The position numbers and the translations under genes were made by a program. The notes below the pieces were generated by a model. It saw only the letters and a program-made list of their open reading frames with translations, made no database searches and had not been told where the DNA came from. From Myxococcota bacterium (GTDB lineage: Bacteria; Myxococcota_C; UBA6777), in assembly GCA_023150835.1 (NCBI GenBank), contig JAKLKB010000108.1, forward strand, positions 1 through 46,850: a DNA stretch of 46,850 bases, written 5' to 3'. Shown in pieces: positions 32,695 through 46,850 of the stretch. Position 1 is the stretch's first letter. Each line of letters begins with the position of its first letter.

Positions 32695-32738
32695 CGGGAT
32701 CTTTTCTCCATGAGGACTGGCGCGGTTGGATTCGGTTG

Positions 32739-32855
32739 TGTGGGGTTTCACCCCACGCCCCGCAAGGGAGCGCGGCTCTATGGACCCCGTATTGGCGAAG
32801 AGACCGCAGGTTTTTCAACACAACGACCCTGTCGCTTGGGTGTTCGCGAACACGG
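32739..32855 (+). repeat. Dispersed repeat family B, copy 3
   Basis: TGTGGGGTTTCACCCCACGC, then GCGCGGCTC, GACCCCGTATTGGC, TTTTTCAACACAACGACCC, and a final TGTTCGCGAACAC. It is collinear with copy 4 at 38433. The start forms a strong hairpin (GTGGGG with CCCCAC). Its left edge lies close to the start of the HEAT-repeat gene. In 32856-33082 I see nothing further. Confidence 0.85.
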
Positions 32856-33082
32856 CTTTTTTGGCCACAAGTCACTCTTCTCTCCGTTTGAAAAACGCTG
32901 TTCGCCCCGAAAGCGACCAAGGCCGCCTTGCGAAGCAGGCGAAGCGAAGTTTGGGCCGCGCCCCACAACACAAATCAACAGACTTCTTATCCGCGATTGA
33001 ACACAGCGACAAGTGTGTCCTGTCTTGAGGACATGGCGACAAAGACGCCGAATGGCCGCTTGTTTGGGAAGAAAAAGCGGTG

Positions 33083-38407: not shown

Positions 38408-38432
38408 TGTCCATACGTTCTTGTTTTCGGAT

Positions 38433-38550
38433 GTGTGGGGTTTCACCCCACGCCCTACTGCCTTAGCGCGGCTCCCTTGACCCCGTATCGGCGGGGTGAG
38501 CGTTCCTTTTTCAAACCAACGACTCTGCCGCTTGGCATGTCGCGAACGCG
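38433..38550 (+). repeat. Dispersed repeat family B, copy 4
   Basis: TGTGGGGTTTCACCCCACGC, GCGCGGCTCCCTTGACCCCG, TTTTTCAAACCAACGACTC and TGTCGCGAACGCG, in the same order as copy 3. It fills the 178-bp gap between ychF and the integrase. Confidence 0.85.
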
Positions 38551-38585
38551 TCTGCTTTTTCTTCTCCACTGCGCGATGATCTCGT

Positions 38586-39554
38586 TCAAAAAAGCTTATC
38601 GAGCGGGCTGTGTACGGAAATTCTGCTTTGTTGCAAAACATGCGTATAGATCATCGTCGTGCTTACATCTTTGTGTCCCAAAAGTTCTTGAATTGTACGG
38701 ATATCGTAGCCCGCATCCAGCAGATGGGTTGCGAAGCTGTGCCGAAAAACATGTGTGCTTACACGTTTTTGGATGCGTGTATCTTTGCATGCCTTATGAA
38801 TCGCACGTTGTAATGTGTCTGGGCTCATGTAGAATCGGCGTGTTTTCCCTGTTTCTCGACAGATGCTTCGCGTTGTTGAGGGAAAGACATACTGCCAGAG
38901 CCATTCTTTCGGGGCGTTGGGCAGTTTTCTTGCCAAAGCAAACGGTAGAAACACTTCGCCGTAGCCTTCTGCACAATCTTTCTGATGAATCTCGTTAACC
39001 TTTCGTAAGTGCTCTTGTAGCGGTTCCACTAGAGAACCGGGCAACATCGTTCTGCGTGCTTTCCCACCTTTGCCGTCTTGCACCAAGATGATCCGCTGCC
39101 CGAAGTCGATGTCTTTGATTCGTAAAGATAAGCATTCTTGGGCTCTTAGCCCTCCACCGTACAATATCTGCGTTGCGAGTTTCGTTGCTCCTGTCATCTG
39201 AGATAAAATATGCTGTACTTCTTCTTTTGTCAGCACTGTCGGAAGATAACGGGATTCTCGTGCTCGCAGCGCGTCGATCTTCCCCTTGAGATCGACTTTG
39301 AGAACTTGTTTGTAAAGAAACAAAAGTGCGTGAAATGCTTGGTTTTGTGTCGAAGCAGACACGTTCTCTTTCGCTGCAAGGTGGGTCAGAAAGGCTTCGA
39401 TTTCCATGTCTCCCATCTCTCTGGGATGTCGTTTGTTGTGGAAGAGGATGTAGCGGCGGATCCAGTTTGTGTAGCTCTTTTCTGTTCGGTATGCGTAACG
39501 CTGCAACCGCATCGTCTCTCTCACTTGCTCAAGCAATTTCGGCGATTTTTCCAT
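38586..39554 (-). CDS. intI: Integron integrase (IntI-type tyrosine recombinase)
   Basis: 322 residues, AGGAGG about 10 nt before the ATG. It recombines attI with attC sites in single-stranded cassette DNA. N-terminal SAM-like DNA-binding domain at residues 1-95. The catalytic set of tyrosine recombinases is complete: Arg137 (GGGLRAQE), His268 and Arg271 (HVFRH), His294 (LLGHKD) and Tyr303 (MIYTHV). The diagnostic IntI insertion that sets it apart from XerC/D is at about 202-224: LPFALARKLPNAPKEWLWQY. The gene reads away from the cassettes, as in all integrons. It is intact and should be active. GC is lower than in ychF next to it. Confidence 0.96.
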   Translation of the reverse strand: MEKSPKLLEQVRETMRLQRYAYRTEKSYTNWIRRYILFHNKRHPREMGDMEIEAFLTHLAAKENVSASTQNQAFHALLFLYKQVLKVDLKGKIDALRARESRYLPTVLTKEEVQHILSQMTGATKLATQILYGGGLRAQECLSLRIKDIDFGQRIILVQDGKGGKARRTMLPGSLVEPLQEHLRKVNEIHQKDCAEGYGEVFLPFALARKLPNAPKEWLWQYVFPSTTRSICRETGKTRRFYMSPDTLQRAIHKACKDTRIQKRVSTHVFRHSFATHLLDAGYDIRTIQELLGHKDVSTTMIYTHVLQQSRISVHSPLDKLF

Positions 39555-39895
39555 CTTTTTGGTTCCTCCTGTGGTGGTTCGGGTGATTTGTCGGCTTTGT
39601 CAAAAATCATGCCGATGCGTTGCCTTTGCTCTTTTTCGTTGCTTTCCGTGTGTAAGTTCTTGAATAAGTGAGGTATGCGCATATTGTGCGTGATATCTGT
39701 GCAGCACGAGCGTTATCCCACACGGAGCGACGAAAAGACAGGCGATCCTGCGTGATAATCTTTTATCTGGTGGATATCGAGGCAGAATGTGCTTGACTTT
39801 GTCTATTTCGTCGGTTATACCTGACACCTATGCGGTGATAACTGGCGAAATCCTGTATTATCATGCAAGTCTGCTGGATAATGATATCGTTCGGC
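39555..39895. other. attI region between integrase and first cassette
   Basis: This 335-bp region should hold the integrase promoter, the cassette promoter and attI. The crossover core GTTCGGC is at 39889-39895, cut between G39889 and T39890. The 150 bp before it contain several GATAA-type motifs (for example GATAAT near 39754 and 39878), possible integrase-binding repeats. No LexA-like site was recognised, so SOS control is not evident. No gene seen. Confidence 0.7.
39794..39822 (+). promoter_or_regulatory. Cassette promoter Pc candidate
   Basis: TTGACT (39794-39799), a 17-bp spacer and TATACC (39817-39822), pointing into the array with start near 39829, 60 bp before the attI junction. Position and orientation match integron Pc promoters. 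Confidence 0.75.
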
Positions 39896-39907
39896 AAAAA
39901 AATTTTC

Positions 39908-39934
39908 TTGACACGGTTATATAAATGGTAACCT
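39908..39934 (+). promoter_or_regulatory. Possible promoter inside cassette 1
   Basis: A perfect TTGACA (39908-39913) with TAACCT (39929-39934) at a short 15-bp spacing, or TAAATA (39934-39939) at 20 bp. Neither spacing is ideal. It would let the cassette be expressed without Pc. Confidence 0.4.
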
Positions 39935-39966
39935 AAATACTTTATTTGACTTGCAAGGAGAAAACT

Positions 39967-40359
39967 ATGTTTGAATTTCTTAAGAACTTAAGCGCAATCT
40001 TTCAAAGCAAACCTTCTTTGTCGGACCTGCAAACTTTGCAATCTGCGGCGCGGAAGATCAATGATTGGCTCGCATCCATTCTCCCTATCAGCCCAGAAAT
40101 AGTTTCCCAAATGTCTTATGCAGACGCCATTCGCTATTTCGTCGAAGATAAGCCTAATGATTCAAGCATTGTTAAGGGCGCAATGTTATTGCAAGAACAT
40201 CCTCAAGGAAAACTTTTTGTACAGGTGTTCTTGAATGGTGACAATGAATTGGTGTGCAAGTCTGATGGGAAACCATACGGTCGGCGTCTCATTGTACGCA
40301 GTTTGGATTCGGAGTTAAAAGAAACATTTGGAAACGAAGAACTGGTGGTAGTTGAATAA
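39967..40359 (+). CDS. Cassette 1 protein A: small soluble protein
   Basis: 130 residues, AAGGAG 6 nt before the ATG. No membrane helix; N-terminal 75 residues are helical (FEFLKNLSAIFQSKPSLSDL, QMSYADAIRYFVEDKP). The C-terminal 45 residues (KLFVQVFLNGDNELV then RRLIVRSLDSELKETFGNEE LVVVE, split) resemble the ends of the next two proteins: a KxxxVQxxF strand, a RxIxxxxLDxEL helix and an EELVVxE tail. No known domain recognised. First gene of the cassette operon, 17 bp from the next. Confidence 0.75.
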   Translation: MFEFLKNLSAIFQSKPSLSDLQTLQSAARKINDWLASILPISPEIVSQMSYADAIRYFVEDKPNDSSIVKGAMLLQEHPQGKLFVQVFLNGDNELVCKSDGKPYGRRLIVRSLDSELKETFGNEELVVVE

Positions 40360-40376
40360 TTCAAAAGGAGTTCCCG

Positions 40377-40685
40377 ATGCCATTTCCAATTATAGGGATT
40401 ATCTTGGCTGCAGTTGCTACTGTTGCCGTCACAGTGCTGCTTATTGTTTATTGGAACGACATTGTTGATTGGTTTCGTTCAAGAAACGATATTAAGGTTG
40501 AGGACAGAGACAACATAGCCTTCACCCTTCAAGAAAAACTGGCCAACGGAAATTACAAAACAGTGCAAGGCATATTCAATACCAGAACGAATACTCTCAA
40601 AGATGGCAGAGCAATAGAATCAAAACAAGTAGATGAAGAGTTACACCAACTGCATAAGGAAGAAGAGTTGGTTGTTTACGAATAA
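40377..40685 (+). CDS. Cassette 1 protein B: small one-TM protein
   Basis: 102 residues, GGAG 6 nt before the ATG. It starts MPFPIIGIILAAVATVAVTV, a membrane helix with almost no N-terminal tail, then WNDIVDWFRSRNDIKVEDRD. The C-terminal half (LANGNYKTVQGIFNTRTN, GRAIESKQVDEELHQL, EEELVVYE) is the shared segment. It is a clear paralogue of protein C (both start MPFPII and share W-D-I-V-x-W-F and LANGxYK). Not a recognised family. 10 bp before the next gene. Confidence 0.8.
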   Translation: MPFPIIGIILAAVATVAVTVLLIVYWNDIVDWFRSRNDIKVEDRDNIAFTLQEKLANGNYKTVQGIFNTRTNTLKDGRAIESKQVDEELHQLHKEEELVVYE

Positions 40686-40695
40686 GGAGAAAAAG

Positions 40696-40986
40696 ATGCC
40701 TTTTCCAATTATACCGATAATAATCGGTGCGTTGACCGCAGTGGCAGCAACTACTTTGATTGTCGCTTGCTGGGATGAGATTGTGGGATGGTTTTCCGAA
40801 AAGAAAACGGATATTAACGACTACGGAGAATTGATCAAACACAGGCTGGCAAACGGAAAATATAAGCTTGTTGGCGGTGTTTTTTCTTCTAGGGGAATGA
40901 AAAAAGCCGAAAACGTGTGGGAAACAGAGCAACTCGATGATGAACTTCAAAAGAAATTTGCTTACTCTAACCAGATAAGGATTTGA
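40696..40986 (+). CDS. Cassette 1 protein C: small one-TM paralogue of B
   Basis: 96 residues, AAGGAG 6 nt before the ATG. MPFPIIPIIIGALTAVAATT gives a membrane helix, then CWDEIVGWFSEKKTDINDYG. The C-terminal part (LANGKYKLVGGVFSSRGMKK, ETEQLDDELQKKF) aligns with protein B but ends NQIRI in place of ELVVYE. Its TGA is followed 6 nt later, in the same frame, by the TTG where the AAA+ gene begins. Confidence 0.8.
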   Translation: MPFPIIPIIIGALTAVAATTLIVACWDEIVGWFSEKKTDINDYGELIKHRLANGKYKLVGGVFSSRGMKKAENVWETEQLDDELQKKFAYSNQIRI

Positions 40987-40992
40987 TTTATC

Positions 40993-42183
40993 TTGAAAAG
41001 CTCCGATGGAAAATCCGGTATAAATTGGCAGATACATGGAATTCCAACCGATATTCCAAGCGCAGAGGCGGCTATATGCCGTTCAAGACTACTACGAGCA
41101 GTTACAGAACTTGAACCTTGGATAGACCGATTGAATTCGGACTTTGCAATTTCTATTGGCGAAGAAGCAACCTTAACAAAATTATATAACCGACCTGAAT
41201 CAAAAAAAAACGAAAACGAAGAGCTGTTTGATACCTCCAAACGTGCGGAGCAATACCAATCGTACCCGCCGTTTTATACTTTTGATCACTTGATTGTTCC
41301 GACAGAAGTAAAAGAAAACTTGTTATCTGCTGTTGAATTGCTTAAAGTAGAAAAAATTGTATTTGATGATTGGGGATTAAGAGAAATTGAACCTTTTCCT
41401 AGAACCGCTCTCAATTTTTATGGGCCACCAGGAACAGGTAAAACTTTAGCTGCGCATGCTTTAGCGCATTTTTTGAATCGCCCAATCCTTGTTGCGAGTT
41501 ACGCAGAGATAGAAAGTAAATTTCATGGCGATGGTCCAAAAAATGTTAAAGCCATCTTTCACGCCGCAGAGCGCGACAAAGCTGTTTTGTTTATAGATGA
41601 GGCAGACTCTCTACTTTCCAAAAGGCTTTTAAATGTTACTCAAGGCTCAGAGCAGGCAATTAATTCAATGAGAAGCCAATTACTTATTTGCTTAGAGCAG
41701 TTTACAGGTATTTCTATTTTTTCTACAAATTTGGTTGAAAATTATGACAAAGCTTTTGAGACACGAATTCGCCACGTTTGCTTTTCTATGCCAGATAAAG
41801 AGTGCCGGTATAGAATTTGGAGGCGCCATTTAGTCGAAAAACTGCCTTTGTCTGAAGATATCAATTTGGAACAGTTGGCTTCGGATGTGGAGAATGTCTG
41901 CGGAAGGGATATCAAAAATGCAGTCATCGATGCGGCTGTGAGAGCCGCCAGAGAAGAGAGAACTCATGTCACTATGAACGACTTACTATGCTCGATCACT
42001 AGAATTACACAAGAAAGAAGTTCTGTGTCGGAAGGATATAGGCCACTAAACCAAGATGAATTTATTGAAGTACAAGGAAAAGTTCAGCGAATGTTACGAG
42101 ATAACGATGATGCCGAACAAATCGCAGCAGCGGACCGGCAGGGCATAGTTAACCAAGCAGAACAATCCACTGAAACGCCATAA
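40993..42183 (+). CDS. Cassette 1 protein D: AAA+ ATPase
   Basis: 396 residues from the TTG at 40993 (AAGGA about 11 nt upstream); no in-frame ATG is near. Residues 1-95 are an unassigned N-domain. The classical AAA module has Walker A GPPGTGKT (144-151), Walker B VLFIDEAD (198-205), a pore-loop-like SKFHGDGPKN (175-184, compare SKYVGESEKN in Vps4/katanin types), sensor 1 STN (244-246), arginine finger in FETRIRH (Arg258), and sensor 2 GRDIKN (Arg305). All are intact, so it should form an active hexamer that threads or remodels a partner. The last 24 residues are encoded by the attC site and read as a low-complexity Gln/Ala tail. Partners are presumably proteins A-C. Confidence 0.9.
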   Translation: MKSSDGKSGINWQIHGIPTDIPSAEAAICRSRLLRAVTELEPWIDRLNSDFAISIGEEATLTKLYNRPESKKNENEELFDTSKRAEQYQSYPPFYTFDHLIVPTEVKENLLSAVELLKVEKIVFDDWGLREIEPFPRTALNFYGPPGTGKTLAAHALAHFLNRPILVASYAEIESKFHGDGPKNVKAIFHAAERDKAVLFIDEADSLLSKRLLNVTQGSEQAINSMRSQLLICLEQFTGISIFSTNLVENYDKAFETRIRHVCFSMPDKECRYRIWRRHLVEKLPLSEDINLEQLASDVENVCGRDIKNAVIDAAVRAAREERTHVTMNDLLCSITRITQERSSVSEGYRPLNQDEFIEVQGKVQRMLRDNDDAEQIAAADRQGIVNQAEQSTETP

Positions 42184-42236
42184 AGATAGACATTTCAATA
42201 ATTTCCCTGCCAGCCCGCTGTGCTCAGGCGTTGGGC
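42112..42236 (+). other. attC of cassette 1
   Basis: R'' GCCGAAC (42112-42118), then AAATCGCAGCAGCGGACCGG; the stem CAGCGGACCGGCAGGG (about 42127-42142) pairs with CCCTGCCAGCCCGCTG (42205-42220) with two mismatches. The apex is about 60 nt. It closes TGCTCAGGC and core GTTGGGC (42230-42236), cut after G42230. AACAAATCGC and CTCAGGCG are shared with the second attC. Confidence 0.88.
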
Positions 42237-42240
42237 ATCA

Positions 42241-42270
42241 TGTCAAATTGTGGGTGTATCCAATTTGACA
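42241..42270. promoter_or_regulatory. Perfect operator-like dyad overlapping a -35 box
   Basis: TGTCAAATTG (42241-42250) and its exact reverse complement CAATTTGACA (42261-42270) are separated by 10 bp. The right arm contains the TTGACA of the first promoter. It is well placed for a repressor or for autoregulation by the methyltransferase or HNH protein. No helix-turn-helix C protein is encoded in the cassette. Confidence 0.7.
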
Positions 42271-42310
42271 CAATCTCGTTGTTGACATACATATTTGCGT
42301 CTGATAAGGT
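42265..42310 (+). promoter_or_regulatory. Two overlapping promoters of the restriction-modification cassette
   Basis: TTGACA (42265-42270), 17 bp, TACATA (42288-42293); and TTGACA (42282-42287), 17 bp, TAAGGT (42305-42310). Both -35 boxes are perfect. The first start codon is 40 bp beyond the second. Confidence 0.7.
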
Positions 42311-42349
42311 TGTTCTTGTTCATAGATTCGACATGGCAAGGAGCGTGAA

Positions 42350-42634
42350 ATGTCGTATAATAATGATGAACTCAACTGGGTTTATGACCGAACAGGTGGT
42401 TATTGTTTCTATTGCGGTATAAAGCTGGCTTTTGTTAATTATGGTAAAGTTGGTAACCGAGGATGTTGGGAAGTGGATCATTTTATCCCTTTAGCAAGCA
42501 ACGGAGCCCATCAACCCTATAATTGGGTTCCCGCTTGTGTTGATTGTAATACTCGCAAAAGTAACCTGTTGCCTTGGCATTTCATGCCCGATAGATTTTC
42601 TCAAGGTGAACGAGATCCTGAGAATTATTTATAA
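42350..42634 (+). CDS. HNH-family endonuclease-like protein
   Basis: 94 residues, AAGGAG 6 nt before the ATG. A complete small HNH fold: CFYCG (zinc), WEVDHFIPLASNGAHQPYNW (His of the first strand and Asn of the helix) and ACVDCNTRKSN (second CxxC and closing His/Asn region). The family includes free-standing nicking or restriction endonucleases. It precedes the Eco29kI-like endonuclease by 72 bp. It might be a second restriction enzyme, a nickase, or a repair factor (Vsr-like role, not Vsr sequence). Alternatively it is an independent passenger. Confidence 0.88.
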   Translation: MSYNNDELNWVYDRTGGYCFYCGIKLAFVNYGKVGNRGCWEVDHFIPLASNGAHQPYNWVPACVDCNTRKSNLLPWHFMPDRFSQGERDPENYL

Positions 42635-42705
42635 AAAAATGGCTGTGGTATGTTTCAATGAGTTATTTGGTCGATAATCTTCTGGACTGAGGGAATATTC
42701 AATTC

Positions 42706-43353
42706 ATGGTGCAGTTTGATCGCAACGAACACGTCTTTCATTCTCCTGATTTTGAAGAAATTGTTAAGGATACAATTCGTTTCTTTAATGGTACACCTGT
42801 TCTTTCCATCCCAGTTCCTGAGAGATTTCATGGAACAGGCGTTTATGCAATATATTGCATCACTAAGGTCGGTTTGTACAAAGATTTTCACGAGATCAAT
42901 CGAACCTCTTATCGCGTCCCGATTTACATAGGAAAAGCAGTTCCTAAAGGCTGGAGGCAGGCTCGTACTTTAAGTTCAGAAGATGAACTAAGTTATGAGT
43001 TGCATAACCGTATTAGAGAACATGGAAGAAGTTTGGACGCAAGTGAGCTAAATCGAGCGAATTTTCGCTGTCGTTTTATGATACTAGAAGGAGCAGAGAG
43101 TGATCTTATTGGCACAGTTGAAGCAGCTTTGATCAGAAATTATCTTCCTCTATGGAATACACTCATTGATGGATTTGGAAATCATGATCCAGGAAGTGGT
43201 CGATATGAACAGGCAAAATCTGACTGGGATGTCTGTCACCCTGGTAGACCGTGGGCAGAAAGATGTCAAGGAAAACATAATGATAAAGATGAGTTAATAG
43301 AGAAAATAAATTCTTTTATGAAAAATCTTCGGGAGAAATATAGTGATGCCTAA
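42706..43353 (+). CDS. Eco29kI-like GIY-YIG restriction endonuclease
   Basis: 215 residues, the size of Eco29kI. No strong ribosome-binding site. GIY-YIG motifs appear as GVYAIYC (Tyr47) and IYIGKA (Tyr74); further conserved positions include Arg102/Arg104 and His106 (NRIREHGRS) and Glu139 (GTVEAALIRNY). The segment WNTLIDGFGNHDPGSGRYEQ and the closing CHPGRPWAERC are characteristic of the Eco29kI/NgoMIII group, which cut CCGCGG. The same target is likely, not shown. Catalytic residues all appear present. It overlaps the methyltransferase gene by about 8-11 bp, unusual for a nuclease placed before its protecting enzyme. Confidence 0.9.
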   Translation: MVQFDRNEHVFHSPDFEEIVKDTIRFFNGTPVLSIPVPERFHGTGVYAIYCITKVGLYKDFHEINRTSYRVPIYIGKAVPKGWRQARTLSSEDELSYELHNRIREHGRSLDASELNRANFRCRFMILEGAESDLIGTVEAALIRNYLPLWNTLIDGFGNHDPGSGRYEQAKSDWDVCHPGRPWAERCQGKHNDKDELIEKINSFMKNLREKYSDA

Positions 43354-44551
43354 CATCTCTAGCCTAGAAATTTTTTCAGGTGCTGGTGGATTAGCAACGG
43401 GTATAGCTCAAAATAATGTCAAACATCATGCTCTAGTTGAATGGAATAAGGATGCTTGTCGAACACTAATGGAAAATTTCGATCCAAAAATTGTTCATAA
43501 TGTTGATATTCGCGATTTTGAATTCATTAAATACGGTCATGTTGATATTGTCGCTGGTGGGCCACCATGCCAGCCTTTTTCATTAGGTGGAAAACATAAA
43601 GGAAGCATAGATACTAGAGATATGTTTCCTTATGCCTGTAAGGCGATTTCGCAATGCAAACCATTAGCCTTTATTTTTGAAAACGTGAAAGGATTGCTAA
43701 GAAAGTCTTTCTCTACTTATTTCGAATATATTATATTGCGGTTAACTTATCCAGAAATTGAGATTGAAGATTCGGAACCCTGGGAAAAACATTTGAATAG
43801 ACTCGAAAAAATTCATACTTCTCAAAACTATAATGGTATTCGATATAATGTTCTATTTCGCTTGATTGATGCCGCAGATTACGGAATCCCACAACGTAGA
43901 GAACGTGTAATTATTGTTGGAATAAGAGAAGATTTAGGTATTGAGTGGTCTTTTCCCCCCCAAACTCATTCTCTTGAAGCGTTAATTTGGTCACAATTTG
44001 TAAGTCATGAATATTGGGAGAGACACAATATAATCCCTGTAAATGTTAACTGCTATGATGAGCGAACTCAAACTCTCATAGCAAAAGCACAACAGCAGGT
44101 AAGGATGTTTCCACCTGGAACAAAACCTTGGAGAACGATTAGAGATCAACTTAAAGATATACCTCAACCTGATGAACATGGAACCTTTCATTCAGAGCAT
44201 ATTCTTCGAGATGGGGCTCGGGTTTATCCTGGTCACACGGGGAGTTTTATTGATTTTCCATCGAAAACACTAAAGGCTGGAGATCATGGTGTTCCGGGTG
44301 GTGAAAACATGATTAGGTATGACGATGGTCGTGTCAGATATTACACTACTTATGAGGCAAAGTTAATACAGACTTTTCCGTCAAATTATAAAATATGTGG
44401 TTCGTGGACTGAAAGTATGAGACAAATTGGAAATGCTGTACCAGTCAAATTGGCCCAAATTATTTCTAATTCAATTATTAAGCAAATTGCGAAGTGTATG
44501 GATGCCCAACAAATCGCTGCACGCCGACTGCCGAACGCGGGCGTTGCTTGA
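43346..44551 (+). CDS. DNA (cytosine-C5) methyltransferase
   Basis: 401 residues from the ATG at 43346 (GGAG 10 nt upstream; the adjoining GTG at 43343 is the alternative). Motif I EIFSGAGGLATG, motif IV GGPPCQPFS with catalytic Cys75, motif VI FENVKG, motif VIII RRERVIIVG and motif X IGNAVPVKL are all intact. It forms 5-methylcytosine at the endonuclease target. The region between motifs VIII and IX holds the target-recognition domain. The last 17 residues (DAQQIAARRLPNAGVA) come from the attC stem. Confidence 0.95.
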   Translation: MPNISSLEIFSGAGGLATGIAQNNVKHHALVEWNKDACRTLMENFDPKIVHNVDIRDFEFIKYGHVDIVAGGPPCQPFSLGGKHKGSIDTRDMFPYACKAISQCKPLAFIFENVKGLLRKSFSTYFEYIILRLTYPEIEIEDSEPWEKHLNRLEKIHTSQNYNGIRYNVLFRLIDAADYGIPQRRERVIIVGIREDLGIEWSFPPQTHSLEALIWSQFVSHEYWERHNIIPVNVNCYDERTQTLIAKAQQQVRMFPPGTKPWRTIRDQLKDIPQPDEHGTFHSEHILRDGARVYPGHTGSFIDFPSKTLKAGDHGVPGGENMIRYDDGRVRYYTTYEAKLIQTFPSNYKICGSWTESMRQIGNAVPVKLAQIISNSIIKQIAKCMDAQQIAARRLPNAGVA

Positions 44552-44605
44552 TCTCACGTGTACACATATCCCGCGTTCGTCAGCGGGTGAGCTCAGGCGT
44601 TGGCC
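44504..44605 (+). other. attC of cassette 2
   Basis: R'' GCCCAAC (44504-44510), AAATCGCTGCACGCCGAC; stem CGAACGCGGG (about 44532-44541) pairs perfectly with CCCGCGTTCG (44570-44579); then TCAGCGGGTGAGCTCAGGC and core GTTGGCC (44599-44605), cut after G44599. The stem bulges are those typical of attC. It overlaps the methyltransferase C-terminus. Confidence 0.9.
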
Positions 44606-46327: not shown

Positions 46328-46850
46328 TATATCCATTTAGTCGCGACTTTTTCGGGGCATCCGAGATATGCTCTTGTTTTCAATCATTGAACATAAAAAC
46401 AAAGAAGATTCGTTTTTGAGTGCCGCAGCAAAACTTTGTAGGTGCAGAACATTGGAAAACATGTGTTCCTTCAAGGAGACTTCGCAAAGTTCGGTTGCTA
46501 CTTCAGTTTGAAGACATCTCGAACATTTGTTTCCTCGCACTTTTTGATGTAAAGGTCGGTTGCTACTACGATTTGAAGGCATCTTTTGTAGAAGAACATG
46601 GTTGAACACGCTTTCCTTCTACTTTTGCATCTAAACATTGATTGCTGCATCGTTTCGAGAACATGTTCTTCGCTTCACTCATTTAGCCCACGATCCCTTC
46701 CGTGATAAACCTGACTCTAACGGATTTTGTGTAAAGGGCGTTGGCCCTTGAGAGAAGCGGCGCAGAGTAGGTTTGGCAGCCAACCCTCTTCATAGACGAA
46801 ACCGTTCAGTTGCTCAAAGGGAGAACGTGCGCTATGGCCCTCTTTTGTGT
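46328..46850. other. Gene-free end of window with local repeats
   Basis: CGGTTGCTACTTCAGTTTGA (46491) is partly repeated at 46558 (CGGTTGCTAC then TTTGAAGGCATCT), period 67 bp. A perfect 12-bp palindrome AGAACATGTTCT is at 46658-46669. GTTGGCC occurs at 46740-46746 and could be another cassette core (same as at 44599), but no matching GGCCAAC was found upstream. No supported gene. Confidence 0.45.

Follow-up and report, generated by a model that had tools for sequence, protein, structure and literature searches.

A chromosomal integron of a Myxococcota genome and intI-less attI copies that may be loaded in trans

Integrons are usually described as a single attI next to a single intI, and a passage of PMC9668308 places attI directly adjacent to intI. 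We analyzed a 46,850-bp stretch of DNA (the window), which is the entire contig C47 of a Myxococcota metagenome-assembled genome (MAG), G000 (7.56 Mb, 239 contigs, 93% complete, 2% contaminated), and compared it with the MAG of a genus mate, G001, and with a MAG from another genus of the same family, G003. The window holds a real chromosomal integron, which alone adds little that is new. The novelty lies in further copies of its attI, with the cassette promoter (Pc) but without intI, which we call orphan docks, and in a blaIMP-1 cassette at one of them that is identical to a clinical copy. Our search of the open PMC literature, with subscription literature largely outside it, found no report of several attI per genome, and we regard multiple orphan Pc-attI docks as provisionally new.

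The closest described systems each match only part of this arrangement. Sedentary chromosomal integrons, as in Vibrio and Xanthomonas, share with the window an intI, an attI, attC sites of one family, an orthologous locus in a genus mate and defence-type cargo (the reference list of PMC12444791 names reports of defence cargo in Vibrio parahaemolyticus and in mobile integrons), whereas the window shows only two complete, large multigene cassettes and its attI is repeated elsewhere. Clusters of attC sites lacking an integron integrase (CALINs) resemble contigs C121 and C48 of G000, which have attC without intI, but on these contigs a Pc-attI module, homologous to that of the intI locus, is retained in full; C121 has the two attC sites that a passage of PMC12444791 gives as the CALIN threshold, and C48 does not. 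A class 1 integron contains a cassette identical to the blaIMP-1 cassette of C121, but the window has a different attI sequence and a Myxococcota chromosome around it, and we rejected it as a class 1 integron since a near-identical intI1 is absent (its IntI is 49% identical to IntI1). From wastewater Myxococcota, an integrase-linked sul4 is described in a passage of PMC12772301.

Orphan docks and the blaIMP-1 cassette

Copies of the Pc-attI module without intI were found, via our first attC model, at C121:9106-9413 and C48:1479-1796. The 21-nt attI core pattern occurred three times without a mismatch in G000 and five times with at most two mismatches in G001, and the reversed-pattern control gave no copy in either genome. 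Comparison of seven attI copies from the two genomes (pairwise, C154 excluded) gave a mean identity of 86% over the 57 nt before GTT and of 30% over the 40 nt after it; by the same comparison the attI beside intI in the window has its crossover at G|TT. The attI-like sequences of C157 (three mismatches) and C154 (two mismatches) were excluded from the dock count. Also rejected as docks were C111, with the first half of the module only, and C135, with a weak promoter part only. No intI lies near the two attC sites of C121 or the one of C48, and because a Pc-attI copy is present we named these contigs orphan docks and not plain CALINs.

Extra sites of this kind might be attG-type secondary cassette insertions and not attI copies, since insertion of that kind is described and is named in a passage of PMC12444791. 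What recurs at these sites, however, is a module some 100-300 bp long that includes the promoter and shows 82-93% identity, and this module occupies an orthologous position in two species, which makes the attG explanation extremely improbable.

On C121, the blaIMP-1 cassette (locus L050, 9411-10298) lies directly at the intI-less attI. It is identical at 888 of 888 bases to a class 1 integron cassette from a P. aeruginosa plasmid, and the encoded protein is IMP-1. The match spans from the crossover to one base beyond R', and upstream of the crossover the dock sequence differs from that of the class 1 integron. When C121 was compared with plasmids by megablast, the best 12 records were all blaIMP-1 cassettes (99.3-99.8% over joined pieces). 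Because of the 888-bp identity to a clinical copy, we consider the acquisition recent; an exact clinical carbapenemase cassette is placed at a Myxococcota chromosomal dock. The second cassette of C121 has a 113-aa open reading frame (ORF) without a Pfam family, and tblastn at E<1 found no intI remnant on this 10.8-kb contig.

On C48, a host gene is followed directly by attI and then by a cassette encoding a MerC-domain protein, for which no near match was found among plasmids. C48 is orthologous to G001:C145 (94% over 2,408 bp); attI stands at the same spot in both, the sequence differs after GTT, and tblastn found no intI piece on either contig. Because contents differ without intI, turnover most simply postdates the loss of intI, and this pair of contigs argues most strongly for loading in trans.

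The same observations bear on the view that the orphan docks are inert relics, loaded first and deprived of intI later, with no action in trans today. Such a history would fit the broken intI at the G001 locus orthologous to the window, and also three module copies in G003 (on C4, on C177 and the second copy on C77), where the 3' flank of intI is kept and intI is mostly or wholly deleted. It fits less well with C48 and G001:C145, which are intI-less in both species and yet differ in contents, and with a recent blaIMP-1 cassette on a contig that holds no intI remnant, and we consider it unlikely.

Whether C121 and C48 could be artefacts of the metagenome, chimeric or mis-binned, has to be weighed as well, since the docks are close to the ends of their contigs and a MAG with an exact clinical cassette raises suspicion. 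The host parts of both contigs nevertheless match C47 in composition: GC is 0.561 for C121, 0.557 for C48 and 0.554 for C47, and the tetranucleotide correlation with C47 is r 0.937 for C121 and r 0.971 for C48. The flanks have orthologs in G001 at 94-95% identity (for C121, 95% to G001:C224 over 2.9 kb), the join on C121 falls exactly at the crossover, upstream of which dock and class 1 integron are unlike, and dispersed sites occur in two further MAGs. An artefact is therefore very unlikely.

We infer from sequence comparison that one or two IntI probably load several chromosomal docks in trans. The window IntI would recombine circular cassettes at attI (39889) through the folded bottom strand of attC, and either it or a second, long IntI encoded on C51 would load the orphan docks of C121 and C48, so that one or two integrases would serve several expression sites. 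Recombination in trans, the integrase responsible, expression driven by Pc and phage defence by the cassettes are all putative steps. If trans loading is true, several promoter-bearing docks would allow multiple first-position cassettes to be expressed at once, and some CALINs would be active sites. In each of the five complete cassettes of G000 (two in the window, two on C121 and one on C48), the R'' box of attC complements the start of its own cassette.

Several points weigh against trans loading. Five G001 sites gave no convincing match between R'' and the cassette start; three of these contigs end within 0.2-1.5 kb, and on C32 a single 7-mer match comes with a poor attC. No such match was found at any of five G003 sites (0/5), and at the sole G003 attC adjoining a dock (on C4, 21.5 bits) R'' misfits the dock junction. 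All loci are MAG contigs on which the docks sit close to the ends, and the attC scan of G000, which scored 150 of 1,763 candidates and missed the window sites, is not a census.

The integron of the window and its ortholog

A sequence-only reading of the window had proposed a complete chromosomal integron with an intact IntI and its specific insert. The integrase scored 445 bits against TIGR02249 (cut-off 265), and its closest solved structure is IntI4 (2a3v, E 7.6e-85). Alignment with IntI1 showed that the invariant catalytic residues R137, H268, R271, H294 and Y303 are all kept, and that the IntI-specific insert is present around LPFALARKLPNAPKEWLWQYVFPS, in agreement with that proposal. The closest plasmid IntI, 58% identical, is on the Kovacikia minuta plasmid pB (locus L040, 17723-20963), where the first cassette, about 2 kb, encodes a DNA cytosine methyltransferase and a hypothetical protein. 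The proposed promoter facing the array is a candidate: TTGACT-N17-TATACC is conserved among the attI copies, but its score in a consensus scan was not above chance.

Both attC sites were accepted by a covariance model, R2, that was trained on 12 plasmid attC sites of other organisms and none from G000. They are its top two matches in the window, attC2 above attC1, with exact ends, and the third match has 12.3 bits (E 0.75). An earlier model, R1, reported neither site, its best window match (13.2 bits) being elsewhere; we attribute this to a length limit because a 131-nt site from its own training set escaped R1 too. A Thiodictyon candidate was kept out of both models since its L box did not align. 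An early attC pattern search of G000 found nothing, with a pattern gap too small even for the window sites; a pattern search of the viral_contigs collection gave 0 matches, and an Rfam scan gave no match. A home-made scan for R and L boxes on the + strand ranked the window sites 1st and 5th of 47, which is supportive and not decisive. The bottom strand folds more stably than the top strand in both attC1 (-21.9 vs -16.0) and attC2 (-27.6 vs -22.7), as is expected of attC hairpins. At position 3 of L'' both sites have G as the extra base; in our alignment A1 (11 sites) this base is C seven times, G three times and T once.

The boundaries had been called base-exact from paired 7-mers. GTTCGGC at 39889 does pair with GCCGAAC at 42112, and GTTGGGC at 42230 with GCCCAAC at 44504, the next R' after attC2 being GTTGGCC at 44599; the ends given by R2 agree with these places. 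The relation alone, however, is common by chance: the window contains 532 and 476 two-cassette chains of 7-mers on its two strands (mean 111 in 20 block shuffles), or 35 and 28 with loose L-box pairing (shuffle mean 3.25), and it is not significant in 47 kb. We count it as evidence because the positions of attI and attC were fixed independently; four free bases per cassette must therefore match, as they do in all five cassettes.

The locus has an ortholog in G001:C258, with 91% identity over 1,928 bp of the ychF-side flank and 93% in attI. There intI is broken (window positions 38635-38958 are missing and about 98 extra bases are present), and attI is kept and followed by GTTGGCGCCGC, so that the sequence right after GTT differs from that of the window, as an integron predicts. 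The window integron is thus chromosomal and inherited with its locus, and this ortholog, together with the acceptance by R2, supports the proposed chromosomal integron.

The GTTGGCGCC element at this junction recurs after the last attC of C121 and at the junction beside the long IntI on C51 (these two are 97% identical over 141 bp). It behaves like a movable unit because it is found at several junctions, although up to the ends of these contigs no attC was found in it. The long IntI (locus L010, C51:896-2686) has 596 aa, with about 270 extra N-terminal residues. It is orthologous in G001:C144 and has a different junction sequence, joined to GTTGGCGCC; no convincing attC was found near either copy.

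Copies of the platform in another genus

The IntI of G003 is 57% identical to that of the window, and the region upstream of its gene recurs at five other places: on C4, as the second copy on C77, and on C177, C64 and C143. All but one of these copies reach the crossover AACAAG|TT (AGCAAG in C177). The exception, on C64, has the promoter part only and was rejected as a dock. A common left sequence, GTGACACGGTGTCAC, is shared by C4, C177 and both C77 copies; to the left of it C4 and C177 diverge from the others, and the two C77 copies stay alike.

These copies fit a wider and tentative reading, which we hold at somewhat below even chance, that an integron platform spreads within the chromosomes of this family, that most copies have lost intI and act as docks loaded in trans by one or two integrases, and that blaIMP-1 is recent in the window's species. 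In G003 the platform copies at different loci would share a left boundary at GTTCAGTGACACGGTGTCACCCC, which contains a palindrome, and a right boundary at the attI crossover. The cargo loaded in trans would be defence cassettes, and the docks non-autonomous docking-and-expression sites.

In G003 the attI on the intI side is followed first by a gene (locus L016, C77:6400-7710) for a DRT5 defence reverse transcriptase (559 bits). C4 codes for an ATPase of the STAND/AAA type and for an EcsC protein.

Cassette genes and repeats

Features of the window are collected in Table 1. Both complete cassettes were larger than 2.3 kb and multigenic, as the sequence-only reading had stated, each with several ORFs. 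The cargo is probably of the anti-phage or defence type, judging from protein families.

Table 1. Integron features and cassette genes of the window, with positions counted from its first base
Feature	Position	Strand	Remarks
intI, integron integrase, 322 aa	38586..39554	-	TIGR02249, 2a3v, IntI1 alignment
Pc-attI module	39584..39889	+	crossover after G at 39889; copies in G000 and G001
candidate cassette promoter TTGACT-N17-TATACC	39793..39821	+	conserved across attI copies
cassette 1, 2341 bp	39890..42230	+	attI crossover to G of R' of attC1
small ORF, 130 aa	39967..40359	+	two Planktothrix plasmid proteins, 44-45% identity
small ORF, 102 aa, hydrophobic N-terminus	40377..40685	+	41% identical to Planktothrix small ORF
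small ORF, 96 aa, paralogue of 102-aa ORF	40696..40986	+	38-40% identical to 102-aa ORF
AAA+ ATPase, 396 aa	40993..42183	+	PF00004 84.7 bits; PADLOC IetA 85.3 bits
attC1, 125 nt	42112..42236	+	model R2 21.4 bits, E 0.0045
cassette 2, 2369 bp	42231..44599	+	first bases complement R'' of attC2
HNH endonuclease, 94 aa	42350..42634	+	PF01844 42.6 bits
Eco29kI-type restriction endonuclease, 215 aa	42706..43353	+	PF09517 218.6 bits; PADLOC REase_II 302 bits
C5 cytosine methyltransferase, 402 aa	43343..44551	+	PF00145 191.8 bits; PADLOC MTase_II 493.6 bits
attC2, 102 nt	44504..44605	+	model R2 28.2 bits, E 1e-4
third unit, truncated by contig end	44600..46850	+	starts GTTGGCCTTGAAA
PLD-family nuclease-like protein, 439 aa	45008..46327	+	PF13091 30.6 bits; PADLOC ZacB 36.9 bits

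The genes of cassette 1 (39967-42183) form a Planktothrix-related operon, in which small membrane ORFs that resemble one another at the C-terminus (..EELVVYE) stand with an AAA ATPase. Over 365 aa this ATPase shares 52% identity with a Planktothrix protein, and a like operon on a Planktothrix agardhii plasmid encodes an Hsp70/TPR-like protein (Hsp70 as read from the sequence, TPR according to the record), five small ORFs, the ATPase and a DUF87 ATPase protein. A longer reading of the 130-aa ORF, from 39946, had no match in Pfam or NCBIfam. The IetAS defence system is a pair of IetA and IetS, the latter a protease. The cassette 1 ATPase matches IetA models (85 bits), but no second IetAS protein was found in the cassette, which has three small membrane ORFs instead. 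We regard the operon as a candidate new defence or stress system.

Cassette 2 contains an adjacent endonuclease and C5 methyltransferase, which make up an Eco29kI-type restriction-modification system, and is 67-75% identical, in parts, to the DNA of Eco29kI plasmids. The start of the third unit resembles what follows attI in G001:C145 (72% over 116 bp), and no attC was found before the contig ends at 46850; the array, which the sequence-only reading took to be complete, runs past that end. Degenerate repeats of about 64 bp occur at 46486-46666 of the window, and also in loci L050 (10688-10847), L080 (6862-7055) and L082 (1-548); they lie beyond the last attC or attI, in units where contigs often end.

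A repeat some 125 bp long, abundant between genes, is present at 32736-32861 and 38426-38560 of the window. Of the 40 matches scored in each genome it accounted for all or almost all, the first-look candidates numbering 589 in G000 and 519 in G001.

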